Shown here: piece after piece, positions 3,164 to 32,072 of the stretch
Layout of the letters: every line of letters starts with the position of its first letter
Numbering within the stretch: position 1 is the stretch's first letter
NCBI GenBank assembly: GCA_903846015.1
Contig: CAIMZS010000179.1
Location: 1 to 35,644, forward strand
Direction: 5' to 3'
Length of the DNA: 35,644 nt
DNA from: an uncultured Anaerolineae bacterium
GTDB lineage: Bacteria > Chloroflexota > Anaerolineae > Anaerolineales > Villigracilaceae
Notes under the pieces: generated by a model
Databases searched by the model: none
What the model was told of the DNA's origin: nothing
The model's input: only the letters and a program-made list of their open reading frames with translations
Program-made: the position numbers and the translations under genes

Positions 3164-3232
3164 TCGACTCGTGTCTGAACCGGGAATATCGCTGGTATTT
3201 CGCAAAATAAAAAATGCTTTATGGAGATTATT

Positions 3233-6868: not shown

Positions 6869-6928
6869 AGGACTGGTTGGCAAGACGTCCAAATTATAGC
6901 AAATATCTTCTCAACACGGTAATTCTGG

Positions 6929-8005: not shown

Positions 8006-8054
8006 AGATCTTCTTGCCTGTTCTTCAAATAATGATTCCGCGAGATGGATAGCA

Positions 8055-8097: not shown

Positions 8098-8104
8098 AAA
8101 TTTT

Positions 8105-8893: not shown

Positions 8894-8908
8894 AAAATAA
8901 TCCCGATG

Positions 8909-8953
8909 TAGTCCCAGCTCTTGTGGGGCGAAATAGTCCCAGCTCCTGCGGGG
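8909..8953. repeat. Two tandem 20-bp repeats
   Basis: TAGTCCCAGCTCTTGTGGGG (8909-8928) is repeated 25 bases later (8934-8953) with two C/T changes. CCCCAGCACTTGTGGGG at 28940-28956 is a relative. Each unit could form a short CCC/GGG stem. They lie between the epimerase gene and the GHMP gene, in the leader of the latter. Confidence 0.6.
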
Positions 8954-8967
8954 TGGTTTGATGTGCT

Positions 8968-11343: not shown

Positions 11344-11397
11344 CTTGATGGTCAGGCAAACTGTCATTTTACAATATTTTCAGTTCGGGATTGCCAC

Positions 11398-11426
11398 TTG
11401 ACAAATTTCAACAAGAATTGTATTAT
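11398..11426 (+). promoter_or_regulatory. Strong sigma-70 promoter for the deoR-rha operon
   Basis: TTGACA (11398-11403), a spacer of exactly 17 bases, then TATTAT (11421-11426). The -35 box is a perfect consensus match. It lies 52 bases before the TTG start of the DeoR-type gene, and the first AATTTCAACAA repeat fills most of the spacer, so a protein bound there would occlude polymerase. Confidence 0.7.
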
Positions 11427-11466
11427 ATTTTTATTAATTTCAACAAAATTCGACAAATTTCAACAA
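11404..11466 (+). promoter_or_regulatory. Three phased direct repeats, likely DeoR operator
   Basis: AATTTCAACAA occurs at 11404-11414, 11436-11446 and 11456-11466. Start-to-start distances are 32 and 20 bases, near three and two helical turns, so all three face the same side of the DNA. The first lies inside the promoter spacer. Direct-repeat operators are usual for DeoR-family repressors, so autoregulation is likely. I found no other full copy elsewhere in the window. Confidence 0.6.
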
Positions 11467-11477
11467 CGGAGAATGGC

Positions 11478-13398: not shown

Positions 13399-13412
13399 AT
13401 ATGGAGAATGCG

Positions 13413-13736
13413 ATGAAACGTGTAGGCTTTTTACTGAAAGTACGCCAGGACAAGCTGGAAGAATACAAGGCTCATCATGCCAATGTCTGGCCCGAAATGT
13501 TGGAAGCGCTCACCCGCACCGGCTGGCACAATTACTCATTATTCATGCGTGACGATGGGCTGATGTTCGGTTATTTTGAAACCCCCGAGAACTTCGACGC
13601 GGCGTTGGATGGGATGGCAAAGGAAGAGATTAACGCCCGCTGGCAAGAATTCATGGCGCCCTATTTTGAAAACCTGGGCGGCCAACACCCGGATGAGGGC
13701 ATGTTGCAAATTCAGGAAGTTTTTCATTTGGATTAA
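13413..13736 (+). CDS. rhaM: L-rhamnose mutarotase, copy 2
   Basis: A 107-residue RhaM with YxxxHxNVWPE near residues 18-27, NYSLFMRDDGLMFGYFE, RWQEFMAPYF and the terminal EVFH. It is the same length as copy 1 at 223 but clearly diverged, so this is not a recent duplication. The ATG at 13413 is taken because GGAG lies at the right distance; an in-frame ATG at 13401 has no ribosome site. It lies between the URO-D protein and rhamnulokinase, so it is the mutarotase of the main rhamnose operon. Confidence 0.92.
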   Translation: MKRVGFLLKVRQDKLEEYKAHHANVWPEMLEALTRTGWHNYSLFMRDDGLMFGYFETPENFDAALDGMAKEEINARWQEFMAPYFENLGGQHPDEGMLQIQEVFHLD

Positions 13737-13845: not shown

Positions 13846-15327
13846 ATGGCATATCAGTACCTGGCAATTGACTTAGGCGCAGAAAGCGGGCGCGTTATTT
13901 TAGGCACATTGGAAAACGGGCGTCTGCAGTTGGAAGAAGTGCACCGCTTTGCCAATAACCCGGTAACTACCCCGGACGGACTCCATTGGGATGTTCTACG
14001 CCTGTGGAGCGAGATTAAGGTCGGGATCACGCTGGCAATACGTAAACACTCTCAGAACATTGTTGGGATCGGAGTGGATACCTGGGGTGTTGACTTTGGC
14101 CTGCTGGACAAAAATGGCGGGCTGCTGGGCAACCCTTTCCACTACCGTGACAGCCGCAACGATGGAATGGTCGAAGAAGCTTTTCTAAGAATCTCGCGTG
14201 AACAAATTTTCGAAAATACCGGCATCCAGTTCATGCAAATCAACACGCTCTATCAACTGTTTTCAATGGTAAAAAACTCGGCAGAAACCCTTCAAGCCGC
14301 CGATAAACTTTTAATGATACCTGATCTTTTCAATTACTGGCTGACCGGGATCAAGGTCTCAGAATTCAGCATCGCAACCACCAGCCAGTGCTATGATCCT
14401 CGCCTGGGCGGATGGTCTCAACCAGTACTCAATGCCCTGGGTATCCCGGCGAATATTTTCGCCCCAATTGTACAGCCAGGCACGCTGCTCGGCCCGCTGC
14501 TGCCAGCTCTCGCCCACGAAATTGGAGCTTCATCCATTAGCGTGATTGCACCTGCCTGTCACGATACCGGATCAGCCGTGGCAGCAATCCCGTCAGCACA
14601 AGACTCTAAAGATTATGCCTGGATCAGTTCTGGCACCTGGTCTTTGATGGGAACAGATTCATCGGCTCCGGTGATCACCCCCGAAAGCCTGAAGTGTAAC
14701 CTTACCAACGAAGGTGGCGTGTTTGGCTCCATCCGCTTGCTCAAGAACATCACCGGGCTGTGGCTGGTTCAAGAATGCCGCCGCACCTGGGCATCCCAGG
14801 GAGATGAACTCTCTTATGGCGATTTGACTGACCTGGCCGCCCAAGCTTCGCCTTTGAGGTCACTGATCGACCCGGACGCTCCCGAGTTTTCCCATCCCGG
14901 CGATATGCCCGACCGCATCCGCGCCTTCTGTCGTAGAACAAGCCAACCTGTCCCTGAAACCAGAGGAGAAATAATCCGCTGCGCTTTGGAAAGTCTGGCA
15001 ATGAAGTATCGCAGTGTGCTGGAAATGTTGGAAAAAGTCACCGGGCGTTCCATGCAAGTTTTGCATATCGTTGGAGGCGGAACAAAAAACCGCCTTCTTA
15101 ACCAATTTGCCGCCAATGGAACCGGTCTGCGCGTCGTCACGGGACCGGTGGAAGCCACTGCCATTGGGAACATCCTGATGCAAGCCATTGCCCTCGGGCA
15201 TATCGACAGCCTGGAAAGCTCGCGCCAGGTGGTACGCCAGTCTTTCGAAGTGGAAACCTATCAGCCCCAAGAACGTGAGGCCTGGAATGAGGCCTACCAA
15301 CGTTACCAGACAGTTGTCAACCCTTGA
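13846..15327 (+). CDS. rhaB: Rhamnulokinase (FGGY family)
   Basis: A 493-residue FGGY sugar kinase, near E. coli RhaB in length. The N-terminal phosphate loop reads [12 protein letters not shown], followed by the RhaB-typical [50 protein letters not shown] and the C-terminal [19 protein letters not shown]. It phosphorylates L-rhamnulose at O1 using ATP to give the substrate of RhaD. AAAGGAG precedes the ATG; the transporter ATPase starts 16 bases later. No separate fuculokinase is in the window, so this enzyme may also serve L-fuculose; that is inference. Confidence 0.93.
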
Positions 15328-15343
15328 TTTGAAGGATTACAAG

Positions 15344-16927
15344 ATGGATATAAATCCAGTTTTGCAGATTAAACACATTTCCAAGCGTTTCGACACCACC
15401 CAGGCGCTCGATGACGTCTCGCTGAATCTATTTCCTGGCGAAATTCACGCTCTGTTGGGTGAAAATGGGGCTGGCAAATCGACTCTGATCAAGATTATGA
15501 CGGGGATCTACTCGCCTGATGAAGGCGAATTATCCTTGGATGGAAAACCGATCCATCTGGCAAATTCTGTGGAAGCGCAAGCCTACGGTATTGCTGCCAT
15601 TTACCAGGAACCGATGGTGTTCCCAGACCTGACAGTTGCCGAAAACATTTTTATCACTCATCGCAATCGTGGATGGGTGATGAACTGGAGCCAGCTGAAT
15701 CGCGATGCCGACGCAATCCTTGCCAAACTGGGTGTCAAACTGGATGTTCGCATGCAAGCGCGCGGGCTGACCCTGGCTGCCCAACAAACTGTCGAGATCG
15801 CCAAAGCCATCTCACTCAAAGTGCGCATCTTGATTATGGACGAACCCACCGCCTCACTCTCGGCCCATGAGGTGCGACAACTTTTCAAGCTGGTTTACTC
15901 ACTCCGCGACCAGGGTGTCTCAATTCTCTTCATCAGTCACCGAATGGAAGAAGTCTTTGAAATTGCCGACCGTGTAACCGTATTCCGTGATGGCAAGCAG
16001 ATTTCCACCCTGCCGCGCAGCCAGGTAACCCAAGAAAGCTGCATCCAGGATATGGTAGGGCGCAAGGTTGAAGAATTCTTTGTCAAGAACAGTGCTCCGC
16101 GCGGCGAATTGCTGCTTTCGGCGCACAATCTGGGCCGCGCTGGTGTCTTTACTGGCTTGAATTTTGAAGTTTACCGTGGTGAGGTGTTGGGGTTCGCCGG
16201 TTTGGTTGGGTCGGGCCGAACAGATGTGGGTCTGGCACTCTTTGGTGTTGAACCAGCCGACTCTGGAGAGATCAGGGTGAATGGTAAAGCTGAAAAGGTA
16301 CATTCGCCTGAACAGGCCTTGCACCTGGGCATCGCATACATGACCGAGGATCGTCGCCAAATTGGACTGACGATGACGATGTCAATTACCAGCAATATTT
16401 CACTTCCAATGCTGCGTCAATATTTAACGCCCTTTGGAATGGTAAAGCGCGCTGAAGAAACCGCAACCGCCAACCATTTCCGAGAGCGGCTTGCGATCCG
16501 CACCACGACGGTTGAGCAACAAGTCGGGCGTCTCTCGGGAGGCAACCAGCAAAAAGTGATGCTGAGCAAATGGCTGAATGCCCGCCCGCAGTTATTAATT
16601 CTGGATGAGCCAACCAGGGGTATTGATGTGGGCGCCAAGGCTGAAGTGCATCAACTCATCAATGAACTGGCAGCGCAAGGCTTGAGCATCATCCTGATTT
16701 CATCCGACATGCCCGAGGTGATTGCGATGAGTGATCGGATACTGGTCATGCGCGAGGGAAAACAAATGGGATTATTCACACGTGCGGAAGCCACGCAGGA
16801 AAAAATCCTGACTTCCGCCATGGGTGCCACCCCACCCTTTCCAGCTCAGAACCGGGATAATGAAGGCGAGGCAATGGTACCCGGTTCTTCACGGGCAAAG
16901 GAAAGCGAAATGGAGAAATCTGCATGA
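15344..16927 (+). CDS. rhaT: CUT2 sugar ABC transporter ATPase (rhamnose type)
   Basis: A 527-residue protein with two ATPase domains, as usual for ribose/rhamnose-class importers. The first has Walker [10 protein letters not shown] (39-47) and Walker [11 protein letters not shown] (161-170). The second has the degenerate Walker [10 protein letters not shown] (287-294), signature LSGGNQQ (397-403) and Walker [13 protein letters not shown]. It powers uptake through the two following permeases. ATG 15344 has GAAGGA upstream. The last part is odd: residues 511-519 (MVPGSSRAK) are encoded by copy E of the dispersed repeat, so the tail has probably been extended by repeat insertion. The stop overlaps the next start as ATGA. 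The symbol follows the rhizobial rhaSTPQ naming. Confidence 0.9.
16874..16897 (+). repeat. Dispersed GC-rich repeat, copy E, inside a coding end
   Basis: A 24-bp copy with core CCCGGTTCTTCACGGG, one mismatch from copy F at 27050. It is translated as part of the ATPase C-terminus and lies 26 bases before the permease start, placing it at the translation start of the next gene as in copies A and F. Confidence 0.65.
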
Positions 16928-17979
16928 ACTGGATTCGACGTACTTTCCGCCCTGAACAAGTTCGGGAACTAATCCTGGTACTGTTGATCGGATTAATTTT
17001 TGCTTTCTTCAGCACCCAGATTACAGGCTATTTCAGTCCGCGTATTTTTAACCGTATCACAGCCGACGTTGCAATCATTACTGTAGTCGCAGTCGGCGAG
17101 GTCTTGGTGCTGCTAACTCGGAACTATGATCTATCTGTGGGATCCATAGTCGGCGTGAGTGCGTATATAACTGGCACACTGCTGACCCGTAACCAAAGCA
17201 TGCCCCCACTCCAGGCAGTTGCCATTGCAGTAGCTCTTGGCGCGCTAATGGGATTAATCAACGGGGCACTGGTTTCTTACGGCAAAGTCCCATCCATTAT
17301 CGTCACATTTGGCACATTGGCAATTTATCGCTCTGTGTTGGTCGAGATATCCAATGCCAAAACGGTAGTAACAAGCCAGTTGCCGCAATGGCTGCTGGAT
17401 TTGCCAGGCGCCAATTTGATGACCGTCGGGGGGTTCGATCTTCGCCCAATGGTCTTAATGGCACTCATCATCGTGGTGCTCTTCCAACTGATCATCACCT
17501 ACCTGCCCTGGGGCAGACAGCTGCACGCCATCGGATCCAGCCCTGAAGCGGCGCGCATCGGTGGACTACCCGCACAGAAGATAGTGCTGGTGGCCTACAT
17601 CGTGTGCGGCGCGCTGGCGGGATTGGCCGGGTTCATGTATCTTGTACGCTTCGGCAATATCACTGTTGTGGCGGCACAAGGGATGGAAATGCAGGTAGTT
17701 GCGGCAGCAGTTGTTGGAGGCGTCAGTACCAACGGCGGCACAGGCACAATGATTGGAGCGCTATTGGGCGCTTTCATGATCAATCTTCTACAGCAAAGTT
17801 TGCTGCGCTGGTTACAAATCAGCGAATTTTGGATCGACGCCTTGCTAGGCGCACTCATTTTATTGGCAGTACTTGTTGATCATATCATCATGGACAAGCT
17901 GCGCACGATTTGGGCCCGCTCCGCCTTACAAGTCACCGATCCAGCATCCGAAATCAAGGAGAGCAGCCATGTTGCATAA
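16924..17979 (+). CDS. rhaP: CUT2 sugar ABC transporter permease 1
   Basis: A 351-residue inner-membrane protein of the RbsC/BPD_transp_2 family with about nine to ten hydrophobic segments, starting at [14 protein letters not shown] (16-29). The family stretch [11 protein letters not shown] and the coupling-helix region around [33 protein letters not shown] are evident. With permease 2 it forms the channel for the imported sugar, taken to be rhamnose or a relative from context. The ATG overlaps the stop of the ATPase (ATGA), so translation is probably coupled. Its own stop lies 11 bases inside permease 2. Confidence 0.9.
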
Positions 17980-18949
17980 GATCGAGCGCTTTCTAACCTG
18001 GGAATCCCTGCTGGTAGTACTCTTGGCGGTGATCGTTGTGATCAATGCCGTGCAGACTCCTTTCTATCTGCGTCCTGAAAACCAAATTAACCTTTTCCAA
18101 CTCTCAATTGAGAAAATCATCGTTGCATTGATCATGACCTTCATCATCATCAACGCAGAAATTGATCTATCAGTGGCTTCAATCATGGGACTGGCAGCCT
18201 GTACCACCGCTTACCTGTGGACCAACAAATACCCCATGGAACTTTGCATACTGGCAGGTCTTCTCTCTGGCGTAGCTGCAGGAATCTTCAACGGGTTCAT
18301 GGTTTCCAAAATTGGGCTGCCGTCCCTGGTGGTGACTCTGGCCGGACTGATTGGCTATCGCGGCCTGGCACGGGTATTGCTTGAAGACCAATCGGTCGGA
18401 CAATTTCCGGAGTGGTTTAACCGTTTGGGACAACAGCCCTTCATCGGTCCGTTTCCAATCGCGCTGATCATTTTCTTTATCTTGTTGATTATCGCCATCG
18501 TCATACTTCAGTACTCCGGATTTGGACGGCTGGTTTATGTGGTTGGAAACAATAAGGATGTCGCCCGCTTTTCTGGTGTCAATGTTGGGCGGGTAAAAAT
18601 GACTCTCTACATCGCATCTGGTTTCATTGCCGCTCTGGCTGGTCTATTATACACAGCAAGGTTGGGCGCAGTTCGGGGCGATACAGCCCTGGGATTTGAA
18701 CTGGATGTCATCACCATGGTTCTGCTGGGTGGCGTAAGTATCTTTGGAGGTTCGGGTTCTATATGGGGAGTGTTACTCTCCATTTTAATCATTCTCAATT
18801 TGCGCAACGGAATGGGGCTCGCCAATATCAGCGGAAATACTCAAACTGGCGTCATCGGTTTGCTGCTGATCATTTCCGTGCTTGGTCCCAATCTCGCCCG
18901 GGAGGCCAGGGCTGCCTGGAACCGGCGCACATACGTGCCCCGTGCGTGA
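17969..18949 (+). CDS. rhaQ: CUT2 sugar ABC transporter permease 2
   Basis: A 326-residue RbsC-type permease. Membrane segments begin at [42 protein letters not shown] and [34 protein letters not shown] are the counterparts of the family's substrate and coupling regions. ATG 17969 has AAGGAG upstream and overlaps the end of permease 1 by 11 bases, so the two are made together and likely form a heterodimer. After it, 218 bases separate it from the binding protein; they show no gene and no firm promoter. Confidence 0.9.
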
Positions 18950-19167: not shown

Positions 19168-21267
19168 ATGCTGAAGAAAGTTGTCAATACGCTTTTGATC
19201 GTTACCATGCTGCTCCTGTCTGCCTGCGGCAGTCCGGCAACCCCAGCCCCTGCAGCGGCTACCGCTGTGCCCGCCACTGCTGTCCCCGCCGCTGCGACCG
19301 CTGTCCCTGCTGTCTCCGCAACAGTAGTGAAGGCCGAAACAGGCAAATCCATCGACATGGTGCTACTACCCAAATTCCTGGGAATCTCCGTTTTTGATGA
19401 AGCCAATCAAGGCGCTCAGGAAGCACATGCAGAACTAAAGAACGCCGGTAAATTGGATTTCCTTGGACCTACGCCTGAAAACAGCGTAGCCGGACAGATC
19501 GAAATCGTCACCAACTCCACCACTCAGGGCGTCAAAGCCATGATGATCAGCAACAACGCTGGTGATCAACTCGTCCCATCCGTCAAAGCCGCCCGCGCAA
19601 AGGGTATGACCATTGTCACCTGGGACTCCCCAGTCCCGTCCGGCGATGGAGAGCAGCTCTTCGTTGCTCAGGTGGATTTCAACCAGATGGGTAAGACCAT
19701 GGCTGATATGGCTCTCGACATCATTGGGGCGGATGGAGGCAGTTTCGCAGTCCTCTCTGCTTCACCAGATGCCGCCAACCAGAACGCCTGGATCGCTGCC
19801 ATGAAAGAAGCCCTCAAGGATGCTAAGTATTCCAAGCTCAAGCTTTTGGATGTGGTTTACGGTAACGATCAATCTGAGACTTCCTACAAGCAGGCACTCG
19901 CGCTGGTAGACAAGTACCCGGATATGAAATTGATCATGTCACCCACCACAGTTGGTATCGTTGCTGCCTCCAAGGCCATGCAAGATGAAAAACTGTGCGA
20001 CAAGGTCAAGGTCTCCGGCCTGGGTCTGCCTTCTGAAATGGCGTCTTATACAAAGAACGGCTGCGCTCCCGAGTTCGCCCTGTGGAGCTTTGTCGACCTC
20101 GGCTACCTGACCTATTACGCCACCTATCTGTTAGCCGATGGCCAGTTACAGGGTGTTGCTGGCGAGACCTTCGAAGCCGGTCGTATGGGTACTTACACCA
20201 TCGAAAAAGATCCCACCCGCCCCAATGGTCTTCGTATTGTCATGGGCCCATTCACAGTCTACAATAAAGATAATGTCGGTGATGCAGCCCCAGCAGCTCC
20301 CGCAGCGGCAAAAGCCGTTCCCGGCCAGTCCGTCAAAATGGTACTGCTGCCCAAATTTCTGGGAATCTCCGTTTTTGATGAAGCCAATCAGGGCGCTCAG
20401 GAAGCACATGCGGAACTGAAGAACCCCGAAAAACTGCAATTCCTTGGACCTACGCCTGAAAACAGCGTAGCCGGACAGATCGAAATCGTCACCAACTCCA
20501 CCACCCAGGGCGTTCAGGCCATGATGATCAGCAACAACGCTGGTGATCAACTCGTTCCTGCAGCCAAAGCCGCCCGCTCAAAGGCGATGACCATTGTTAC
20601 CTGGGATTCTCCCATCCCGTCCGGTGATGGCGAACAGCTCTTCGTTGCCCAGGTAGATTTCAACCAGATGGGTAAGACCATGGCTGATATGGCACTCGAC
20701 ATCATTGGGGCGGATGGCGGTAGTTTCGCAGTCCTCTCTGCCTCACCAGATGCTGCCAATCAGAACGCCTGGATTGCTGCCATGAAGGAAGCCCTCAAGG
20801 ACGCCAAGTATTCCAAGCTCACACTTTTGGATGTTGTTTACGGTAACGACCAATCTGAAACTTCCTACAAGCAGGCACTCGCGCTGGTAGACAAGTACCC
20901 GGATATGAAACTGATCATGTCACCCACCACAGTTGGCATCGTTGCTGCCTCCAAGGCCATGCAAGATGAAAAACTGTGCGACAAAGTTAAGGTCTCCGGC
21001 CTGGGTCTGCCTTCCGAAATGGCTTCTTATACCAAGAACGGCTGCGCTCCCGAGTTCGCCCTGTGGAGCTTTGTCGACCTCGGATATCTGACCTATTACG
21101 CCACTTACATGATTGCCACTGGCACCATCAAGGGCGTTGAAGGTGAAACCTTCGAAGCCGGTCGTATGGGTACTTACACCATTGAAAAGGACCCCACCCG
21201 CGCGAATGGTCTGCGCATCGTCATGGGTCCATTCACCGTCTACAACAAAGACAACGTAGGCAACTAG
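19168..21267 (+). CDS. rhaS: Two-headed sugar-binding lipoprotein (tandem RhaS-like domains)
   Basis: A 699-residue lipoprotein, about twice the usual length. The signal peptide ends in a lipobox LLLSAC with Cys20, followed by an Ala/Pro/Thr tether. Two type I periplasmic-binding domains follow: residues 64-371 and 391-698, 308 residues each and about 94% identical by my alignment (18 differences), joined by an Ala/Pro-rich linker. At DNA level the units (19357-20280 and 20338-21261) are offset by exactly 981 bases. Half of the changes cluster in a few patches, notably [13 protein letters not shown] versus [13 protein letters not shown]. It delivers sugar to the CUT2 permeases. RhaS-like is inferred from the adjacent rhamnose genes. 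GGAGG precedes the ATG. Confidence 0.88.
19357..20280 (+). repeat. Binding-domain repeat unit 1
   Basis: First of two directly repeated 924-bp units, matched by 20338-21261 at an offset of 981 bases. Many differences are silent third-position changes, so the pair has diverged under protein-level constraint and is real rather than an assembly doubling. Confidence 0.9.
20338..21261 (+). repeat. Binding-domain repeat unit 2
   Basis: Second 924-bp unit, in frame with unit 1 through a 57-base Ala/Pro linker. It lacks its own signal peptide, confirming that the two are made as one polypeptide. Confidence 0.9.
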
Positions 21268-21505: not shown

Positions 21506-23827
21506 ATGAATAATGAAATGATCAACAAAATTCCGCTCAGCGATTATAGTTTGATAGGAAAGGATTCATCTCTGGCCATTGAAAAGGGCCTGGCAAATGC
21601 GAAGTGGTATGTTTCGCCTGTGCCACGGGAAAAGATGCGCGAACTCCTGGAACGAAAAGATGGCCCAGCCATACGAGATACACTCTTGTGGCTGGTATTG
21701 CTGTTTTTCTTTGGAGCTTGTGGGTTCATTCTGTGGGGAAGCTGGTGGGCAATTTTTCCTTTTGCCGTTTATGGCGTTTTGTATGCTTCGGTTTCAGACT
21801 CCAGATGGCATGAATCCAGCCACGGCACCGCCTTCAAAACGGATTGGATGAATAATGCCTTGTACGAACTGGCCTCCTTTATGGTGATCCGTGAATCAGT
21901 TCGCTGGCGCTGGAGTCACACTCGCCACCATAGCGACACGATCATAGTAGGACGAGACCCGGAGATCGCAGTTCCGCGGCCATTTAAGTTGGGCGTATTT
22001 ATTCTCAATTTTTTCAATGTTTTTGCTTTTCGAATGTACTGGAGCAATGTACTGCTGCACTGCACCGGCAAAGTAACCGCAGATGAGCGCACCTACATTC
22101 CCGAAACGGAATATCCCAAATTATTTATCCGGGCGCGCATCTATGTTTTGATTTACCTGGGAATTATTGGATTAAGCATTTATTCAGGCAGCATTCTGCC
22201 TCTTTTATATATAGGTCTTTCGAGTTTTTACGGAGGCTGGCTGATGCCAGTCTACGGCAATACACAGCATGCCGGGTTGGCTGAGAACGTGCTCGACCAT
22301 CGCCTGAACTGCCGAACAGTTTATATGCACGCAGTTAACCGCTACCTGTACTGGAATATGAATTACCATGTTGAACACCACATGTTCCCGTTGGTACCTT
22401 ACCATGCCTTGCCGAAACTGCATGAACTCATCAAGGCGGATGTCCCGCCCGCCTATAATGGTCTTCGGGCGGCCTACAGCGAGATAATCCCCGCTCTGAT
22501 GCGTCAGGCCAAGGACCCAACCTACTTTGTTAAGCGTCAACTCCCAGAAAGCGCGCTTGCCCTATCGCTATCGGATGTTTCCAGTAATGACAAAGCAGCC
22601 CTTGCCGCGGGTACATCCCAAGTGATTAAAACGGAATGTAAACATCTTGCAAATGGTTGGATTGAGATTTGCCCAAGCAGCCAGATTCGAAAAGAAGAGG
22701 TACTGCGTTTCGACCACAATCACCAAACCTTTGCCCTTTATTGCGACCAGAATGGGAGTTTTTACGCAACCGATGGCCTTTGCACCCATGGAAACGCACA
22801 TCTGGCCGATGGTATGATAAAGGGAACGATTATCGAATGTGCCAAGCACAACGGACGTTTTGATATACGCGATGGCTCGCCTCAACGCTTGCCCGTATGT
22901 GTAGGATTAAAAACTTATCAGGTGCGCGAAAGCGGCGGCATGCTTCAAGTCGATTTATCCACAGCTGGCGGATACGGTGTAACTCAGGCATCTGACACGT
23001 ACACATTCCGGGTGGTCAGCAACTTGAACGTTGCCACAACCATCAAAGAACTTGTGCTCGAACCCATAGACAGCGTTGGAGTGCCAGATTACCAGCCTGG
23101 TGATTACCTGCAGTTCAACATTCCGGATTATCCAGAACGCACATTGCAAGAAATTGAAATCGGGCCGCCTTACGAAACCACCTGGCGAACTCAAGGCATC
23201 TTCGACCTGAAAGCAGCCAACCCGGCCGCCTGCCGCCGTAATTATTCGATGGCCAACAACCCGCAAATTGAAAAAAACATGCGCTTCAATGTACGCCTGG
23301 CTGTGCCGCCCGCAGGTGTCCATTGCCTTCCTGGTGTTGGCTCGTCCTATGTTTTTAGCCTCAAACCAGGCGATAACGTTACCGCAACCGGGCCTTTCGG
23401 TGATTTTCATGTCAGGGAAACAGGCCGTGAAATGGTTTACCTGGGAGGAGGGGCCGGCATGGCTCCGCTGCGTTCGCATCTTTCGTGGCTATTTGAAACC
23501 CGCAAAACGAATGCTCTCGTGAGCTATTGGTATGGCGCGCGTTCACTTCAAGAAATTTTTTACCAGGAATACTTTGAAAACCTTGCGAAGTCATACAATA
23601 ATTTCAAATTCCATGTCGGACTCTCTGAGCCACAACCAGATGATCAGTGGAACGCATACACCGGTTTTATCCATGAAATTTTGAAGAGTAAATACCTTGA
23701 CTCGCATCCAAATCCAAAGAACATCGATTATTTCCTGTGTGGCCCCCCTGCCATGATCCAGGCCGCGACAGCCATGCTGAAAAACCTGAGAATTCCACCA
23801 GCGCAAGTTTTCTTTGATGAATTCTAG
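21506..23827 (+). CDS. Self-contained membrane oxygenase: desaturase-Rieske-reductase fusion (MocDEF-like)
   Basis: A 773-residue three-part protein. Residues 1-345 are a membrane di-iron fatty-acid-desaturase-type domain with HESSH (102-106), HTRHH (138-142) and HVEHH (288-292) plus several membrane segments near 58-95 and 165-245. Residues 375-487 are a Rieske ferredoxin with CTH (426-428) and CAKH (445-448). Residues 495-773 are an NqrF-like flavin reductase with RNYSMAN (578-584), GGGAGMAP (647-654) and CGPPAM (745-750). Together they can pass electrons from NAD(P)H to the di-iron site. The same parts occur as MocD, MocE and MocF, reported to remove the O-methyl of rhizopine. In a rhamnose operon an O-demethylase for methylated deoxysugars is a reasonable inference; lipid desaturation is the alternative. 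AGAAGGAG precedes the ATG. Confidence 0.8.
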   Translation: MNNEMINKIPLSDYSLIGKDSSLAIEKGLANAKWYVSPVPREKMRELLERKDGPAIRDTLLWLVLLFFFGACGFILWGSWWAIFPFAVYGVLYASVSDSRWHESSHGTAFKTDWMNNALYELASFMVIRESVRWRWSHTRHHSDTIIVGRDPEIAVPRPFKLGVFILNFFNVFAFRMYWSNVLLHCTGKVTADERTYIPETEYPKLFIRARIYVLIYLGIIGLSIYSGSILPLLYIGLSSFYGGWLMPVYGNTQHAGLAENVLDHRLNCRTVYMHAVNRYLYWNMNYHVEHHMFPLVPYHALPKLHELIKADVPPAYNGLRAAYSEIIPALMRQAKDPTYFVKRQLPESALALSLSDVSSNDKAALAAGTSQVIKTECKHLANGWIEICPSSQIRKEEVLRFDHNHQTFALYCDQNGSFYATDGLCTHGNAHLADGMIKGTIIECAKHNGRFDIRDGSPQRLPVCVGLKTYQVRESGGMLQVDLSTAGGYGVTQASDTYTFRVVSNLNVATTIKELVLEPIDSVGVPDYQPGDYLQFNIPDYPERTLQEIEIGPPYETTWRTQGIFDLKAANPAACRRNYSMANNPQIEKNMRFNVRLAVPPAGVHCLPGVGSSYVFSLKPGDNVTATGPFGDFHVRETGREMVYLGGGAGMAPLRSHLSWLFETRKTNALVSYWYGARSLQEIFYQEYFENLAKSYNNFKFHVGLSEPQPDDQWNAYTGFIHEILKSKYLDSHPNPKNIDYFLCGPPAMIQAATAMLKNLRIPPAQVFFDEF

Positions 23828-23887: not shown

Positions 23888-24712
23888 ATGAAATTATTAT
23901 TAGCGCGACATTTATGGGGCATTACCGAAACATGGGAGCAATCCTTTCCACGGATTCTCGCTGAAGGATACCAAGCCATCGAGACTCCTTTACCAGAGCC
24001 AGAAGATCAGGATCGTTTCCGCGCTTTATTGGATCAGTATGGATTTGAATATATTGCCATGGTTCTGACGAGCGGAGCGACAGTAACGGACCATGTTAAT
24101 TCATTTCGGTCGCAAATTGAGTCTAGCAGCAAGCTGCGCCCCATGATGATAAATAGCCATAGTGGGCGCGACTCATGGACAGAATCACAGAGTCGCGAAT
24201 ATTTTAAACAAATACTGGCAGTAGAGGCAACGCTGGATATCCCGGTTGCCCATGAAACCCATCGAGGTCGGATCTTATTCAACCCCTGGATCACGGAACG
24301 AATGCTGCTCGAATTTGAGCATTTGTATCTTTGCTGCGATCTCAGCCATTGGGTATGTGTGTGCGAACGCCTGTTAAATAACGAATCGGAGATTATCCGC
24401 CTTTGTGCTGAGCGATGTATTCATTTGCACACAAGAGTTGGGTATGAGCAAGGCCCGCAGGTACCGGACCCGCGCGCACCAGAATATAAAACGCACCTGG
24501 AAGCACACGAAAACTGGTGGAATATCATCTGGAATACTCAGGCAGCCCAGGGGCGAAAAATCAGCACAATGACGCCAGAATTTGGGCCTCCTGGTTATTT
24601 GCACACACTGCCTTACACCAATATGCCGGTGGCTGACCTGTGGGATATTTGCAATTGGCAGGCACAGCGCCAGTCTGAACGCTTTGCGAATCAATTTCCT
24701 GATATTACCTGA
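23888..24712 (+). CDS. Sugar phosphate isomerase/epimerase-like TIM-barrel protein
   Basis: A 274-residue AP-endonuclease-2/xylose-isomerase-like barrel, the family that includes IolE and MocC. Candidate metal ligands are Glu123 (AHETHRGR), Asp151 (CCDLSHW), His181 (HLHTRVGY) and Glu231 (MTPEFGPPGY), in the usual strand-end order. Members isomerise, epimerise or dehydrate sugars and cyclitols; the substrate here is unknown. It follows the oxygenase fusion by 60 bases and precedes rhaD, so it may process a product of that oxygenase or a non-standard sugar entering the rhamnose route. Fold call is good, function open. Confidence 0.7.
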   Translation: MKLLLARHLWGITETWEQSFPRILAEGYQAIETPLPEPEDQDRFRALLDQYGFEYIAMVLTSGATVTDHVNSFRSQIESSSKLRPMMINSHSGRDSWTESQSREYFKQILAVEATLDIPVAHETHRGRILFNPWITERMLLEFEHLYLCCDLSHWVCVCERLLNNESEIIRLCAERCIHLHTRVGYEQGPQVPDPRAPEYKTHLEAHENWWNIIWNTQAAQGRKISTMTPEFGPPGYLHTLPYTNMPVADLWDICNWQAQRQSERFANQFPDIT

Positions 24713-24783: not shown

Positions 24784-25605
24784 ATGTTAGAAACCCCTTA
24801 CCCCGAACTTGACGATATGCTGAGAATGATGGGAGAAGCTGGTCGACACCTGGCAGATATCGAAGCTAGCGAAGGCGCAGCCGGAAATATATCGGTCTGC
24901 ATGCGCTGGCCTGTTGAACCACGCTCCCGTTTTCAAGTGATGACCGAGATAGAACTACCCCAGTCAGTACCTGAACTCGCCCACGCGACATTTCTTGTCA
25001 GCGGTTCTGGCCGTCGGCTACGCGAAATCATCGATGAGCCAACCGCCAATATCGCCTGTATCGTAGTAAATCCGGGCGGCATAACCGGCAAGCTGTTTAC
25101 ATCCTACCAGCGTCGCTTCGAGCATGTCACCAGTGAATTTAATTCACACCTGGCAGTTCACTATGATCAGATTTGCACAACCAATACAAACTTTCACGCG
25201 GTCATTCACGGTCAACCCATTCACCTGACATACCTCAGCCACATCCCACGTTACCAGGATGAGCAATTTCTCAACTCACACCTGTTACGCTGGCAACCAG
25301 AAACGATCATTAACTTGCCTGAAGGTATTGGGTTTATCCCATTCCAGGTACCAAGCTCAACCGAATTGATGGCCGGGAATATCGTATCACTGCGCCAACA
25401 CCGCATTGTTGTCTGGGCCAAGCATGGTGTCATGGCGCGTTCAGACATCTCCATAAAACGCGCTGCGGATCGGGTGGAATATGCCGAAACCGCGGCAAAA
25501 TACGAGTTTCTAAACTTAAGCGTCGGAGAAATCGGTACCGGTCTCAGCAGCGAAGAAATTCGCTCGATTTGTTCCACATTTAATATCAAGCAGAATATAT
25601 TCTAA
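24784..25605 (+). CDS. rhaD: Rhamnulose-1-phosphate aldolase
   Basis: A 273-residue class II aldolase, matching the length of E. coli RhaD (274). It cleaves L-rhamnulose-1-phosphate to DHAP and L-lactaldehyde with zinc. Features are EGAAGNIS near the phosphate site, VSGSGRR, the zinc region [15 protein letters not shown] with its two His three apart, and AKHGVMARS supplying a further His. RhaD-specific length and segments distinguish it from the shorter FucA at 29049. The ATG is preceded by AAAGGA. It is followed 58 bases later by rhaA. Confidence 0.92.
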
Positions 25606-25663
25606 ATTTGTTTTGGTTTTATGGGATTTTCCAGAGAGCCATAAAAACACAACGGGAGCCAAT

Positions 25664-26920
25664 ATGACAATCGAAACCCAGGTCCAAACTGCCTACTCTG
25701 TTGCCGCAGAACGCTACGCCGCACTCGGAGTGGATACTCAAACTGCTCTCTCTGCGCTTGAAAAAGTCGCCATTTCACTGCACTGTTGGCAAGGCGATGA
25801 TGTCGGCGGGTTTGAAAATCCGACCGGCGGGCTGAGCGGCGGCATTGCCGCCACCGGCAATTATCCAGGCAAGGCACGCACGGCAGATGAACTGCGGCGT
25901 GATCTCGATGTAGCCTACAGCCTGCTACCGGGCTCACACCGTCTTAACTTGCACGCCATTTACCTGGAATCTGACAAAAAAGTGGAGCGCAACGCCATCG
26001 AACCTCGTCACTTTGCAGCCTGGAAAGATTGGGCCAAAGCCGGTGGTCATGGGGTCGACTTTAACCCAACTTGCTTTTCGCACCCGCTGTCTGCCGATGG
26101 ATTCACCCTTTCGCACCGCGATCCAGCCATTCGCCAATTTTGGATTGAACACTGCATCGCCAGCCGTCGGATTGGTGATTATTTTGGAAGGGAACTGGGC
26201 ACTCCAGCAGTTACTAATATTTGGGTACCCGATGGATACAAAGATTCTCCGGCGGACCGCACCACACCCCGCTTGCTGCTGCTGCAGGCTCTTGATGAAA
26301 TCCTGGCGGAAAAATTACCTGACAACTTGGATGCAGTTGAACCTAAACTTTTTGGCATTGGCTCAGAAAGTTATGTCACTGGCTCGATGGAATTTTACAG
26401 CGCTTACGCTGTCAGCCGAAAAATCCTGCTCACACTTGATTCCGGCCATTTCCACCCCACTGAAACGATCGCGGATAAAATTTCTTCACTCTTGATCTAT
26501 CTCGACCAAATCCTGCTGCATGTAAGCCGCGGCGTTCGCTGGGACAGCGACCATGTCGTCACTTTTAATGATGACCTGCAGGCCATCGCCCAAGAAGTTG
26601 TGCACTGTAATGCCCTGGAACGCGTTCACATTGGGCTGGACTATTTCGATGCCAGCATCAACCGCATCGCAGCCTGGACGATTGGCACAAGAAATACCCA
26701 GCGCGCCCTGCTCCAGGCCCTGTTGGAACCGCACCAAATGCTGAATACATTCGAGGCGCAAGGCGATTTCTCCAGCCGCCTGGCCTTGCAAGAGGAATTA
26801 AAGGTGATGCCCGCCAATGCCGTCTGGGATTATTACTGTCTCAGCAAAAGCGTGCCGGTTGGCATGGCTTTCATGGATGTTATAAAAACGTATGAGAAGG
26901 CTGAATTAACCCAAAGATAA
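25664..26920 (+). CDS. rhaA: L-rhamnose isomerase
   Basis: A 418-residue enzyme, one residue short of E. coli RhaA, converting L-rhamnose to L-rhamnulose. Hallmarks include [77 protein letters not shown] and the metal-site stretch [22 protein letters not shown] 25664 is chosen from the GGGAG site and the family length; an upstream in-frame start at 25613 would add 17 residues. It is the classical E. coli-type isomerase, not the Pseudomonas-type RhaI. The gene ends before a probable terminator at 26929. Confidence 0.95.
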
Positions 26921-26957: not shown

Positions 26958-27049
26958 TTATCCGCACTGGTGACAGATGCGGACACTCTAGAACCAGGCA
27001 CTACAAATCGATATTTCCCTCCCTTTGAGGACGGGCGACAATTGGTGTA

Positions 27050-27073
27050 ATGGTACCCGGTTCTGCACGGGCA
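27050..27073 (+). repeat. Dispersed GC-rich repeat, copy F
   Basis: A 24-bp copy with core CCCGGTTCTGCACGGG, one mismatch from copy E. The AGGAG ribosome site of the aldehyde oxidoreductase follows within five bases, the same placement as copies A and E. Confidence 0.65.
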
Positions 27074-27084
27074 CAGGAGTTAGT

Positions 27085-28863
27085 ATGAATGGATGGAACG
27101 GTAAGATTTTAGATATTGATCTGGCAACACAAACCCATAAATCATATCCTCTGGATATGGAAATGGCAAAACAATTCATTGGTGGGCGCGGCCTTGGCGC
27201 TCGACTGCTGTGGGACCTGGTTGGCCCCGAAGTGGAGCCGCTGGCACCCGAAAATGTGCTCATTTTTACCAATGGACCTTTAACCGCAACTGGTTACCAG
27301 ACCAGCAATCGTTTTTCGGTTACGACCAAAAGTCCACTGACCGGCACAGTGTTGGATGCCAATTCTGGCGGTTTTTGGGGCATGCAGTTTAAAAAGACCG
27401 GATACGATGTGCTCATCGTGCGAGGAAAGGCTGTCAGCCCCATTTGGATCGAAATCAAGAACAGTGAAGTGACTTTTCACGACGCCAGCGACTTGTGGGG
27501 TATGCGAGTCTATGCTGTGACGGAGAAATTGGGCCAGGATAATAACCGCCGCAATGTACTCTGCATTGGTCCGGCTGGCGAAAATCTGAGCCGGATCGCG
27601 GCAATTATGAATGACCGTGAGCGGGCTATGGCGCGTGGCGGTCCCGGTGCTGTAATGGGCTCAAAAAACTTGAAAGCCATCGTAGTTGAGGGTTCAGGGC
27701 GTCCAGAAATAGATGACAAGGAGCGTTTTAAGTTCCTTTTGTATGAAACCCGCAAACTCCTGGCGGCCAGCCCGCTCACCAGTCAGGCACTTCCAGAATT
27801 CGGCACAGTGGTGTTAATGAATATCATGAACAACATTGGCGCTCTGCCAACCCGCAACCACCAAGAAACCCAATTCGAGGGTGCCGAAGATATTTCTGGT
27901 GAGACCCTCACCGAGAAATATCTGGTCAAAAATGCATCCTGCTGGGCCTGTCCGATTGGCTGTACACGTATCAGCAAAACCGAGAAGGTTGAAGGCGAAG
28001 GGCCTGAATTTGAAACCACCTGGGCCTTCGGAGCACAATGTGGTATTAACGACCTGGCTGCCATCATCGAAGTCAACTCCCTTTGCAATGACCTGGGGCT
28101 GGATACAATCTCGGCAGGTTCAACCATTGCCTGCGCAATGGAAATGAGCGAAAAAGGTTATATCGACTCTGATTTACGCTTTGGGCGCGCCGACCTGCTG
28201 GCCGGCTGCGTTGAGGATATAGCCTACCGTCGAGATTTGGGCGCTGATATGGCCGAAGGTTCTCTGCGCATGGCGACGAAATTCGGGCATCCCGAACTGT
28301 CCATGACAGCCAAGGGAATGGAAATGCCCGCCTACGACCCACGCGGGCTGCAGGGGCAGGGCCTACTTTACGCTACATCCAATCGCGGCGGTTGTCACAT
28401 GCGTGGGAACATGATTGGGCTGGAAGTATTGGGGCTGCCAAAACTGATTGACCGCTTCGTGGTACAGGGCAAGAGCAGTTTTGTCATCTTGAATCAAAAT
28501 TCCAACGCCGCAATTGACTCGCTGGTGATCTGTAAGTTCACAAACATGGGCGTAGCTGATGAATACTTCGCCCGTGTTTTAGGCGCGGTGACCGGTATCC
28601 AATATGCCACTGGCGAATTGATCAAAACTGGTGAAAGAGTTTGGAATCTGGAAAGGCTCTACAACCTGCGAGAAGGCTTTACAAACAAGGAAGACACTTT
28701 GCCAGATCGTTTGCTCACCGAAGCCCCCCTGACTGGCCCATCTAAAGGCTGGGTCTCACACCTCGAGCCGATGCTAAAAGAATATTATCGCAGCCGTGGC
28801 TGGGACGAATATGGTGTGCCCACTCCCAATAAACTGGCTGCCCTGGGATTGGCAAATTTATAG
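27085..28863 (+). CDS. Aldehyde:ferredoxin oxidoreductase (tungsten/molybdenum pterin)
   Basis: A 592-residue AOR-family enzyme. The N-terminal domain has the family start GWNGKILDIDL, FIGGRGLGARLLWD, NGPLTATGYQTSNRFSVTTKSPLTG and ANSGGFWG. The [4Fe-4S] ligands are Cys286, Cys289, Cys293 (CWACPIGC) and probably Cys483 (VICKFTNMG), close to Cys288/291/295/494 of the Pyrococcus enzyme. AORs oxidise aldehydes to acids, reducing ferredoxin. Lying between rhaA and fucA, its natural substrate is probably L-lactaldehyde released by both aldolases, giving L-lactate for LutABC; this is inference. ATG 27085 follows CAGGAG by five bases. The cofactor is usually oxygen-sensitive, in tension with the oxygenase upstream. 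Confidence 0.88.
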   Translation: MNGWNGKILDIDLATQTHKSYPLDMEMAKQFIGGRGLGARLLWDLVGPEVEPLAPENVLIFTNGPLTATGYQTSNRFSVTTKSPLTGTVLDANSGGFWGMQFKKTGYDVLIVRGKAVSPIWIEIKNSEVTFHDASDLWGMRVYAVTEKLGQDNNRRNVLCIGPAGENLSRIAAIMNDRERAMARGGPGAVMGSKNLKAIVVEGSGRPEIDDKERFKFLLYETRKLLAASPLTSQALPEFGTVVLMNIMNNIGALPTRNHQETQFEGAEDISGETLTEKYLVKNASCWACPIGCTRISKTEKVEGEGPEFETTWAFGAQCGINDLAAIIEVNSLCNDLGLDTISAGSTIACAMEMSEKGYIDSDLRFGRADLLAGCVEDIAYRRDLGADMAEGSLRMATKFGHPELSMTAKGMEMPAYDPRGLQGQGLLYATSNRGGCHMRGNMIGLEVLGLPKLIDRFVVQGKSSFVILNQNSNAAIDSLVICKFTNMGVADEYFARVLGAVTGIQYATGELIKTGERVWNLERLYNLREGFTNKEDTLPDRLLTEAPLTGPSKGWVSHLEPMLKEYYRSRGWDEYGVPTPNKLAALGLANL

Positions 28864-28956: not shown

Positions 28957-29048
28957 CCTATGCACAGGGACGGTCTATAACCATCCCAGTCACCCCGATG
29001 CCAATACACTATCCCTCATCGCTTAACGGACGGGAATGGAGAAATAAA

Positions 29049-29660
29049 ATGGTTGATCCACGAATTTACGAAATGTTTCGCGAAATTGGCCGCGATCTGT
29101 ACACCGCCAATATGATTTCATCCCACGGTGGAAATTTGAGTATTCGCCTGGGTGACCGGGTAATTATCAAACGCCGTGGCGCTATGCTGGGCAATCTCAA
29201 AGAGCACGATTTGATTGAAACCCGGCTGGATAAAAACGACAGTGGCGTAGCTCTGGCTTCCACGGAACTACTCGTCCACCGGACTGTCTATCTGACTACA
29301 CCTGCCCTTGCCATCTGTCACTGCCACCCACGCACGGCGATCGCCTTTTCCCTTTCCCGTGACGAGATTGTGCCGATTGACAACGAGGCATCCTATTTGC
29401 TAAAAAAGGTGCCGGTCATCGCGGAAGAGTTTGCCTCTGGTACGCCACAGATGGCCAACAAGGTAGCCAGCGCCTTGCAGAATTACAAAGTTATCATGCT
29501 GCGCGGACACGGTACCTTTGCCACCGGACAAACATTGGATGAGGCTTTTTTCTGGTCTTCCACTGTAGAAGAGGCTTGCCAGATTATGCTGTTTACAAAA
29601 CAAATAAATGAGCCGTTCATCGAATATCGAAAAATGAGCGAATCTTACAGCAAGTTCTAA
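29049..29660 (+). CDS. fucA: L-fuculose-1-phosphate aldolase-like class II aldolase
   Basis: A 203-residue zinc aldolase of the FucA/AraD family. It has SSHGGNLSIRLGD for phosphate binding, the acid residue in STELLVHRTVY, the zinc pair CHCHPRTA and a further His in LRGHGTFATG. The short length favours FucA over RhaD. It would split fuculose-1-phosphate to DHAP and L-lactaldehyde, completing the fucose path begun by fucI and fucU at the other end of the window. GGAG precedes the ATG by seven bases. Related aldolases act on other ketose phosphates, so the symbol rests partly on context. Confidence 0.85.
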   Translation: MVDPRIYEMFREIGRDLYTANMISSHGGNLSIRLGDRVIIKRRGAMLGNLKEHDLIETRLDKNDSGVALASTELLVHRTVYLTTPALAICHCHPRTAIAFSLSRDEIVPIDNEASYLLKKVPVIAEEFASGTPQMANKVASALQNYKVIMLRGHGTFATGQTLDEAFFWSSTVEEACQIMLFTKQINEPFIEYRKMSESYSKF

Positions 29661-29875: not shown

Positions 29876-30598
29876 ATGCCCAAAGCCCAACTTTTCATTA
29901 CCTGCTTAGGTGACCAGTTTTATACAACCACTCTTCAGAACATGACGCATGTACTGGAGCGCCTGGGGGTGGAATTGACTTTTCCATCTGGACAAACCTG
30001 TTGCGGGCAGCCTCTATTCAATAACGGATTTGAAGATAAAACGCGCGCCGTAGCCCTGAATTTCATGCATGCCTTTGAAAAAAGTGATGCCCCCATTGTG
30101 GGGCCATCCGGTTCATGCGTCAGCATGGTCAAGCATCACTACGCGCAATTGTTCCCGGTCGGGACGCCTGAACATGCTCTGGCAGTTAATATTGCAGCGC
30201 GAACATTTGAGTTTACCGAATACTTGGTCAACGTTTTAAAAATATCCGACGTTGGCGCAGTCTACCCTCACAAAGTTACATACCATGCCTCCTGCCATTA
30301 CCTTCGTGAGATGGGGCTGAAAACCGAAGCCAAAACCCTTTTAGGCGCAATCAAAGGATTGGAACTCATTCCACTCAATGAAGAGGATACCTGCTGCGGT
30401 TTTGGTGGCGCTTTTACAGTCACATTTCCCGAGGTCAGCCAGGCCATGATGAATAATAAAGTCAACCACATCATGGCTTCAGGCGCTGATACGGTTGTGA
30501 CGTGCGAGCCAGGCTGCCTGATGAATATCGCAGGTGGACTTCACAAGGCCGGCTCAAGTATCCGCGCCATGCACATCATTGACTTGCTGGCATCATAG
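29876..30598 (+). CDS. lutA: L-lactate oxidation complex subunit LutA
   Basis: A 240-residue protein with the paired cysteine-rich (CCG) domains of LutA/YkgE: TCCGQPL and SGSCVSM in the first half, ASCHY, DTCCGFGGAF and CEPGCLMN in the second. With LutB and LutC it oxidises L-lactate to pyruvate, probably passing electrons through Fe-S centres to the membrane quinone pool. Length matches the family. The start lacks a strong ribosome site (GAGAG about 15 bases upstream), but MPKAQLFITCLGD is the expected N-terminus. LutB follows after 31 bases. Confidence 0.9.
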   Translation: MPKAQLFITCLGDQFYTTTLQNMTHVLERLGVELTFPSGQTCCGQPLFNNGFEDKTRAVALNFMHAFEKSDAPIVGPSGSCVSMVKHHYAQLFPVGTPEHALAVNIAARTFEFTEYLVNVLKISDVGAVYPHKVTYHASCHYLREMGLKTEAKTLLGAIKGLELIPLNEEDTCCGFGGAFTVTFPEVSQAMMNNKVNHIMASGADTVVTCEPGCLMNIAGGLHKAGSSIRAMHIIDLLAS

Positions 30599-30629
30599 CA
30601 ATCCTGGATTCAGGAGAGAAGAGCATTAT

Positions 30630-32072
30630 ATGAGCAGCGACCCGCACTCTTACATTGGTTTTGAAGAATACAGCGATCATATTCCAGCCAGCATCCCGGC
30701 GGCAGTTCAGCAAGCCACCAGCCGTTTTGTTGGCGGGCGTACGGCCCGGGTGGCAGAACTACCTCAATGGGAGCAGCTGCGCCAAATCGGCTCAGATATT
30801 CGCCTGCACACCATCCAGCACATGGATGTTTACCTCACCCGCTTCGAAGAGAAAGTACAGGCAGCCGGCGGAATCGTTCATTGGGCTTCAACTGCCGAAG
30901 ATGCGCGCCAGATCGTGCTGCAGATCGCGAAAGACCACGATGTTAAGCTGGCAGTTAAATCCAAATCAATGGCGACGGAAGAAATAGATCTCAACCACGC
31001 CCTGGAAAACGCGGGCATCGAAGCGCTAGAAACCGACCTGGGTGAATACATCATCCAGCTAGCCGGAACTGGTCCATCTCATATCATTGTTCCGGCTGTC
31101 CATCTCAAAAAAGAGGAAATTGCCGCCCTCTTCAGTGAAAAACTCGGGATCAATGCGCCCCCCGACCCGATTGAATTAACACGTATCGCCCGCGAAACCC
31201 TTCGGGGGAAGTTTTTATCCGCTGAAATGGGTATTTCAGGCGCTAATTTTCTCATCGCGGAAACTGGCACCATTGTCATGGTCACAAATGAAGGTAACGG
31301 GCGAATGTGCACCACCATGCCTGATTTACATGTTGCGGTGGTCGGCATTGACAAGGTCATCCCAGACTGGGAATCGCTGACAATTTTCCTAAAGCTGCTG
31401 GCGCGCTCAGCCACAGGACAAAAGCTCTCCACATACACCCAGTTCATCACCGGGCCGCGTCACACCGATGGCGAATTTGGCCCCAAAGAATTTCATATTG
31501 TTTTGTTGGATAATGGCCGTTCAAACATTTTGAAAGATCCCATCGGGCGGGAAGTATTAAAGTGTATCCGCTGTGGGGCTTGCGCAAATGTTTGCCCCGT
31601 CTACAAAAATGTTGGCGGCTTCGCCTATGGTTGGTTCATCTCTGGCCCCATCGGGGCCATCTTCGCCCCGCAGATGCTCGGAACCCAGGCCGCGCGTGAG
31701 TTGCCCTATGCTTCCACGTTGTGCGGAGCCTGCGCCGAGGTTTGCCCGGTCAAAATTCCCATTCCAACCATCCTGCGCCATCTACGCCGCCGCGTTGCCC
31801 AGGGCGATGAATTTGCTGAACCAGTCATGCCGGTCGCTTTCAGCGCCATTGCCGGCCTTGCCGCGCTTGCTCTCGCCCAAAACTGGATGTATCGCTTTGG
31901 CACACGCCTGCTGCCATTTTTTATGCGCATTTTCAATCGAGATGGTTGGATCCCCAGCGCGCCATACCCACTCAGCCGCTGGACAAAAGCGCGCCCGTTA
32001 CCAGCCTTCACTGCCGGATTTAGAAAATGGTGGAAAATGCGCTCCGTAGCTGGAAAGGATTCGCACCAATGA
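30630..32072 (+). CDS. lutB: L-lactate oxidation complex iron-sulfur subunit LutB
   Basis: A 480-residue protein close to B. subtilis LutB (476). The N-terminal part is the LUD domain (KSKSMATEEIDLNHALE, ETGTIVMVTNEGN), and two ferredoxin-like clusters follow: Cys312/315/318/322 (CIRCGACANVC) and Cys365/368/372 (CGACAEVC). A hydrophobic tail stretch near residue 400 is present. ATG 30630 starts at the conserved N-terminus, with GGAG somewhat far (about 13 bases). The stop overlaps the LutC start as ATGA. Its location after two lactaldehyde-forming aldolases and an aldehyde oxidoreductase supports lactate as the intermediate. Confidence 0.92.
   Translation: MSSDPHSYIGFEEYSDHIPASIPAAVQQATSRFVGGRTARVAELPQWEQLRQIGSDIRLHTIQHMDVYLTRFEEKVQAAGGIVHWASTAEDARQIVLQIAKDHDVKLAVKSKSMATEEIDLNHALENAGIEALETDLGEYIIQLAGTGPSHIIVPAVHLKKEEIAALFSEKLGINAPPDPIELTRIARETLRGKFLSAEMGISGANFLIAETGTIVMVTNEGNGRMCTTMPDLHVAVVGIDKVIPDWESLTIFLKLLARSATGQKLSTYTQFITGPRHTDGEFGPKEFHIVLLDNGRSNILKDPIGREVLKCIRCGACANVCPVYKNVGGFAYGWFISGPIGAIFAPQMLGTQAARELPYASTLCGACAEVCPVKIPIPTILRHLRRRVAQGDEFAEPVMPVAFSAIAGLAALALAQNWMYRFGTRLLPFFMRIFNRDGWIPSAPYPLSRWTKARPLPAFTAGFRKWWKMRSVAGKDSHQ

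Follow-up and report, generated by a model that had tools for sequence, protein, structure and literature searches.

A predicted single-chain sugar O-demethylase of MocD/MocE descent with an NqrF-type reductase, encoded among rhamnose genes of an Anaerolineae bacterium

The fusion gene and its surroundings

The whole stretch of DNA analysed, 35,644 nucleotides in length, is called the window (W), and L-numbers denote the other loci compared with it. An open reading frame at 21506–23827 on the plus strand begins with ATG and runs as a single frame of 773 amino acids with zero internal stops. The genes and domains are as follows.

810–1442, plus strand: B12-binding corrinoid protein, MtgC/MtbC-like (62% identical to the corrinoid proteins of the L002 and L135 fusion operons)
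1835–3163, plus strand: URO-D/MtaA-like protein with an HSCG motif, candidate methyltransferase
3221–5008, plus strand: FucI, L-fucose isomerase
11391–12245, plus strand: DeoR-family sugar regulator
12301–13398, plus strand: URO-D/MtaA-like protein, candidate corrinoid-type methyltransferase
13401–13736, plus strand: RhaM, L-rhamnose mutarotase
13846–15327, plus strand: rhamnulokinase-like FGGY kinase
15188–18949, plus strand: sugar ABC importer (ATPase 15188–16927; permeases 16924–17979 and 17873–18949)
19168–21267, plus strand: RhaS-like sugar-binding protein, two binding domains in one 699-aa chain
21506–23827, plus strand: fusion protein P0001, 773 aa, predicted self-sufficient membrane diiron O-demethylase (open reading frame, Pfam/NCBIfam, alignment)
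21740–22459, plus strand: its oxygenase domain, FA_desaturase superfamily, MocD type, residues 79–318 (Pfam, BLAST, tree, residue comparison)
22658–22954, plus strand: its Rieske [2Fe-2S] ferredoxin domain, MocE-like, residues 385–483 (Pfam, NCBIfam, BLAST)
23000–23824, plus strand: its NqrF-type FAD/NADH reductase domain, residues 499–773 (NCBIfam, fold comparison)
23888–24712, plus strand: metal-site TIM barrel, xylose isomerase-like (adjoins the fusion in about 30 of the 80 listed loci)
24784–25605, plus strand: RhaD-like rhamnulose-1-phosphate aldolase
25613–26920, plus strand: RhaA, L-rhamnose isomerase
27025–28863, plus strand: aldehyde ferredoxin oxidoreductase (AFOR)
28998–29660, plus strand: class II aldolase, FucA-like

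Profile searches with the protein matched FA_desaturase (5e-32, residues 79–318), Rieske (2e-16, 385–471) and NAD_binding_1 (2e-15, 646–754) in Pfam, and nqrF (6e-90, 499–773) and MocE_fam_FeS (9e-33, 385–483) in NCBIfam. In an alignment of 54 full-length fusion homologues, the His boxes H102/H106, H138/H141/H142 and H288/H291/H292 were invariant together with H255 and H265. The Rieske ligands C426, H428, C445 and H448 and the reductase motifs G647, G649, G651 and C745-G-P747 were invariant as well. Therefore, the fusion is neither a chance product nor an assembly join. The first-pass annotation had read three His boxes, a complete Rieske site and an NqrF-like reductase in one chain, and this reading is borne out by the profiles and the invariant residues. 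The predicted structural model has middling confidence for the oxygenase domain and leaves the arrangement of the domains uncertain (pTM 0.52). The fold-comparison list for the model was filled by reductases, and searching solved structures with the sequence of the oxygenase third gave zero matches.

Downstream of the fusion, the TIM barrel gene (starting about 60 bp away), RhaD, RhaA, AFOR and the class II aldolase follow on the same strand with short gaps. A duplicated sugar-binding protein had been noted upstream from the start, and the two-domain RhaS-like protein was indeed found there. Such double binding proteins, with two Peripla_BP_4 domains per chain, are unusual and occur in no fewer than three of the four fusion loci from Anaerolineae (W 19168–21267, L135 370–2346, L002 2578–4572). 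The AFOR could oxidise lactaldehyde or formaldehyde. Besides the AFOR, a LutB-like protein (30534–32072) is also encoded after the rhamnose genes of W, and the two may convert lactaldehyde to pyruvate. Next to FucI, cytidylyltransferase-like, fucokinase-like, HIT-like and GDP-fucose synthase-like genes occupy 5554–10029 of the minus strand, maybe as a fucose activation set.

Descent of the three parts

By BLAST, the oxygenase third shares 54.7% identity over 338 aa with the MocD of Rhizobium indicum, and the Rieske part 47.6% with the MocE of the same species. With the W oxygenase as query, split MocDs scored 414–443 bits versus at most 26 bits for Anaerolineae lipid-type desaturases. In the tree, which was drawn without AlkB and XylM, the fusions and the MocDs fell together and a long branch set the lipid-type proteins apart. 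The position of four remoter split oxygenases, which stood on very long branches, is unsure. Residue comparison showed that the three diiron His boxes are common to the fusion and MocD. Nine polar residues adjoining the His boxes (D98, R100, R129, R140, D144, D264, H265, R266 and N268) are fixed (at least 95%) across 91 rows of fusions and MocDs; the 19 lipid-type desaturases compared lack them. Fixed polar residues at these positions are what a polar substrate would predict. The Pfam name FA_desaturase and the membrane helices would suit a lipid desaturase or hydroxylase that lies in the operon by chance. However, the scores of at most 26 bits to lipid-type desaturases against more than 410 bits to MocD, together with the tree, rule this reading out for the oxygenase, which groups with the split MocDs and does not nest among lipid desaturases. 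The different polar residues and an operon context kept in several phyla also speak against it, so that it is largely refuted and hardly credible.

The best NCBIfam ferredoxin match of the Rieske domain is MocE. Its score against the MocE ferredoxin profile TIGR02377 was 112.3 bits, below the cut-off of 136.15, and the domain is thus MocE-like without being a formal member. The reductase has a different origin. The MocF tested is of the AndAa/HcaD type, i.e. a pyridine-nucleotide-disulfide-type ferredoxin reductase, and BLAST found no similarity between it and the fusion. A MocF-like reductase is ruled out on this ground. Since the fusion carries an NqrF FAD/NADH domain instead, it is not a plain joining of MocD, MocE and MocF into one chain. 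Judged by sequence, its reductase is an unrelated NqrF-type replacement for MocF. Of the MocD-MocE-MocF likeness claimed in the first-pass annotation, the MocD and MocE parts therefore hold and the MocF part does not.

Against the NqrF profile TIGR01941, the fusion scored 302 bits, over the cut-off of 295, matching from position 130 of 405 only. The reductase third matched the FAD domain of NqrF (7qty) with a Z score of 39.9 and 42% identity. It is homologous over the whole FAD/NADH part to NqrF, the NADH-oxidising subunit of Na+-NQR. On the other hand, the N-terminal membrane anchor and plant-type 2Fe-2S domain of NqrF are missing in the fusion, and the Rieske domain and the oxygenase stand in their place. 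Because the NqrF cut-off is exceeded, automatic annotation may wrongly label the family 'Na+-NQR subunit F'. A sugar-demethylating role for the family would put this misleading name right, as well as 'fatty acid desaturase', which the fusion also matches.

The Rhizobium indicum MocD comes from a locus (L096) with the order MocA-MocB / MocR / MocD-E-F, the same as that published for rhizopine catabolism loci (PMC10107442). Its MocB scored 39.8 bits against the rhizopine binding protein profile, whose cut-off is 420, and is ruled out as a certified rhizopine binding protein. L096 is therefore termed moc-like by its gene order, not as proven rhizopine-specific. In several loci, split rhizobial MocDs sit with the inositol genes iolG, iolE and iolC. 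In Pseudomonas syringae, a published survey places mocDEF beside a second xylose isomerase gene (PMC5132102). On a Rhizobium leguminosarum plasmid (L099, 5981–9053), a MocD gene without an adjacent MocE adjoins a 'sterol desaturase', a Gfo/Idh enzyme and a sugar isomerase.

Spread and gene neighbours of the fusion family

One genome-collection scan found the same fusion, nearly always at full length, in at least 80 genomes. Among the matches listed, 48 were from Verrucomicrobiota, 10 from Acidobacteriota and 10 from Bacteroidota; Chloroflexota, Kiritimatiellota, Planctomycetota and others were also represented. Homologues are also encoded by relatives that can be cultured, for example Sunxiuqinia and Wenyingzhuangia (L045 and L056). 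Within the 150 genomes nearest to that of W, the full fusion was present in W's own genome and three others only, and thus it is patchy in Anaerolineae. A literature search, with subscription papers mostly outside its scope, found no published description of the family. Overall, the fusion is a variant of the MocDE oxygenase with a different architecture and a wide distribution, and the contextual support for its predicted sugar O-demethylation is strong.

Linkage to sugar genes was assessed by comparing operon-like neighbours with genes more than 6 kb off in the same fusion loci, 133 proteins each. Near versus far counts were 14 and 2 for URO-D, 11 and 0 for the xylose-isomerase-like barrel, 9 and 0 for aldose 1-epimerase, and 5 and 1 for RhaT. 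Gfo/Idh/MocA (5) and RhaM (2) also occurred near, both being outside the 25 commonest far families. In sequence clusters, the TIM barrel lay within 1.5 kb of the fusion in 30 of the 80 listed loci, from at least five phyla (p=3e-14, with loci taken as independent though the genomes are related). The control and the clusters both support a linkage of the fusion's relatives to sugar genes. RhaA and RhaD stand alongside the fusion in W and L001 only (the L001 RhaA was found by tblastn), and FucI in L063 only. In L063, URO-D, RhaM, fusion, TIM barrel, fucosidase and FucI share one strand, and this FucI is 68% identical to that of W. RhaT or RhaM is found in about eight further fusion loci. Most loci hold mutarotases or transporters that do not name the sugar. 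The neighbours (mutarotases, RhaT and RhaM, with RhaD-RhaA in W and L001) point to free sugars. Directly 3' of the fusion, a protein of about 285 aa with no Pfam or NCBIfam match is encoded in about seven loci, among them L062 (4048–4905), L007, L012, L013, L047 and L055.

The W barrel is xylose-isomerase-like (AP_endonuc_2) with an intact metal site. Its family alignment keeps E123, D151, H181 and E231, which we take to be the usual metal-site pattern of such barrels. The barrel model (pLDDT 94.7) resembles AsbF, hydroxypyruvate-isomerase-like proteins, UlaE, the eliminase AtOGE and YcjR. The order of barrel, RhaD and RhaA had been read correctly before. The assignment of the barrel to the MocC/IolE family was not supported: Pfam, BLAST and profile search gave no specific membership, with zero BLAST matches to a rhizobial IolE, a weak partial match to an IolE structure in the profile search, and AsbF as the best match. 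BLAST also gave zero matches to the TIM barrel genes adjoining rhizobial MocD, and a shared function is therefore not claimed. The barrel probably acts on the same sugar as the fusion, as an isomerase, epimerase or eliminase, and most likely rearranges or cleaves it.

The same chemistry might serve another substrate, namely methylated cyclitols (pinitol, ononitol) or other methyl hexoses, the placement in a rhamnose operon being secondary. The iolG, iolE and iolC neighbours of rhizobial split MocDs make methylated cyclitols an equally established context, the neighbours in most fusion loci are general mutarotases and Gfo/Idh enzymes, not rhamnose genes, and the barrel has a fold like those of sugar epimerases, isomerases and an O-glycoside eliminase. 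However, BLAST in the fusion loci returned zero IolE or IolD homologues and one MocR-like match, and the operon partners in W, L001 and L063 are rhamnose- or fucose-specific. A substrate of this other kind is considered unlikely.

Corrinoid and URO-D genes beside the fusion

A corrinoid-dependent O-demethylase system consists of methyltransferase I, a corrinoid protein and methyltransferase II. URO-D/MtaA-like proteins lie within 1.5 kb of the fusion in 12 of the 80 listed loci (p=2e-3, loci again taken as independent though the genomes are related), and some of them have HSDG or HTDG instead of HSCG. Corrinoid proteins are present in three Anaerolineae fusion loci (W, L002 and L135), each with an adjoining methyltransferase-like gene (810–3163 in W). 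The L135 protein is 66% identical to that of L002 and 62% to that of W. In W, the fusion is 20 kb from the corrinoid gene and 8 kb from the nearer URO-D gene. In L002, four URO-D genes and the corrinoid protein gene are directly upstream of the fusion. The L135 operon, also from Anaerolineae, starts with a binding protein, ATPase, permease, corrinoid protein, URO-D and a weak aldose-epimerase-like protein, and continues with a URO-D-like protein, the fusion, a TIM barrel, a pterin-binding methyltransferase, DUF1638 and MTHFR. This linkage to cobalamin-type methyl-removal genes is new here; the first-pass annotation made no mention of corrinoid or URO-D genes.

The linkage to corrinoid, URO-D, pterin-binding and MTHFR genes strengthens the reading of the fusion as an O-demethylase. 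On the other side, proteins of the URO-D family serve other functions too, and the HSDG and HTDG variants likewise count against this reading. The linkage also bears on a sugar hydroxylase or dehydrogenase that would oxidise a ring C–H or an alcohol and keep the methyl group. The desaturase superfamily has hydroxylases of polar substrates (the fusion gives a weak GntB score), and Gfo/Idh and aldo-keto reductase neighbours exist. However, these methyl-transfer genes are sensible in the operon mainly with methyl removal, and the substrate linked to MocD, the nearest characterised relative, is a methyl ether (the rhizopine 3-O-methyl-scyllo-inosamine). An oxidation sparing the methyl group is thus quite improbable.

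Operon sharing suggests that the corrinoid genes act on the fusion's substrate. Methyl transfer to the corrinoid protein by URO-D proteins would then be a second, O2-free route to the same end. As in the corrinoid-dependent O-demethylases of anaerobes, corrinoid and URO-D/MtaA-like proteins accompany the fusion, and L135 adds the pterin-binding methyltransferase and MTHFR; in contrast, the fusion is predicted to use O2, and corrinoid genes occur in some fusion loci only. The host genome has a heme-copper oxidase, which makes O2 use plausible. Five matches to the RACo-type reductive activator were found in the genome, with zero within the window. Activators and oxidase together make both O2 and O2-free regimes plausible. 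A bolder reading, less likely than not, is that one methyl-sugar operon combines two unrelated routes, the O2-dependent diiron fusion and the corrinoid/folate chain, by which methylated (deoxy)sugars would be opened with and without O2, or two methyl positions by different chemistry. A literature search, in which subscription papers were mostly out of reach, found no published methyl-sugar demethylation by such fusion or corrinoid systems.

It is fairly likely that the fusion O-demethylates methylated sugars as a single chain, using NADH and O2. For the family as a whole, we predict with good confidence that the ether of a small polar sugar or polyol is O-demethylated. A deoxyhexose as the substrate of the W fusion is an evenly balanced prediction. 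The first-pass annotation had proposed an O-demethylase for methylated deoxysugars: descent and linkage support the sugar O-demethylase, and the deoxysugar part draws on few loci (W, L001, L063, and RhaT or RhaM in about eight). We infer the following course. The ABC importer would take a methylated 6-deoxyhexose, most likely O-methyl rhamnose or fucose, into the cytosol. NADH would reduce the FAD of the C-terminal NqrF-type domain, and the Rieske [2Fe-2S] cluster would relay electrons from there to the diiron centre in the N-terminal, membrane-embedded domain. This centre would hydroxylate the O-CH3 carbon, and the resulting hemiacetal would collapse into free sugar and formaldehyde. The sugar could then enter RhaM, RhaA or FucI, RhaK and RhaD.

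Methylated sugars are present in algal, plant and bacterial glycans. For instance, 2-O-methyl-rhamnose was reported in the EPS of wastewater 'Ca. Accumulibacter' (PMC11320575). If the proposal is right, methyl removal by the fusion would make such sugars usable as food, and an enzyme that is widespread, encoded by one gene and equipped with an electron chain would offer an easy handle on bacterial methyl-sugar recycling. As far as MocD-MocE-MocF (Bahar et al. 1998) is described in the papers citing it (PMC10107442, PMC5132102), the fusion resembles that system in its oxygenase (55%), ferredoxin (48%) and order, and the presumed oxygenation of a polyol methyl ether fits its predicted job. In contrast, the fusion is one chain instead of three, has an NqrF-type instead of an AndAa/HcaD-type reductase, and lies in a sugar context in other phyla, the split system being in an inositol context. 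In the literature searched, which was partial, removal of a sugar methyl ether was shown for one enzyme only, the P450 that demethylates 6-O-methyl-D-galactose in porphyran-degrading marine bacteria (PMC10033563). If our reading is right, both would perform oxidative O-demethylation to sugar and formaldehyde in a sugar-use locus; the P450 is a heme enzyme of a different superfamily with separate redox partners. After the split MocD-MocE operons of L096, L097, L100, L101 and L103, genes for PanB-like proteins and/or PurU are found, and these one-carbon-unit enzymes are candidates for the uptake of formaldehyde from demethylation.
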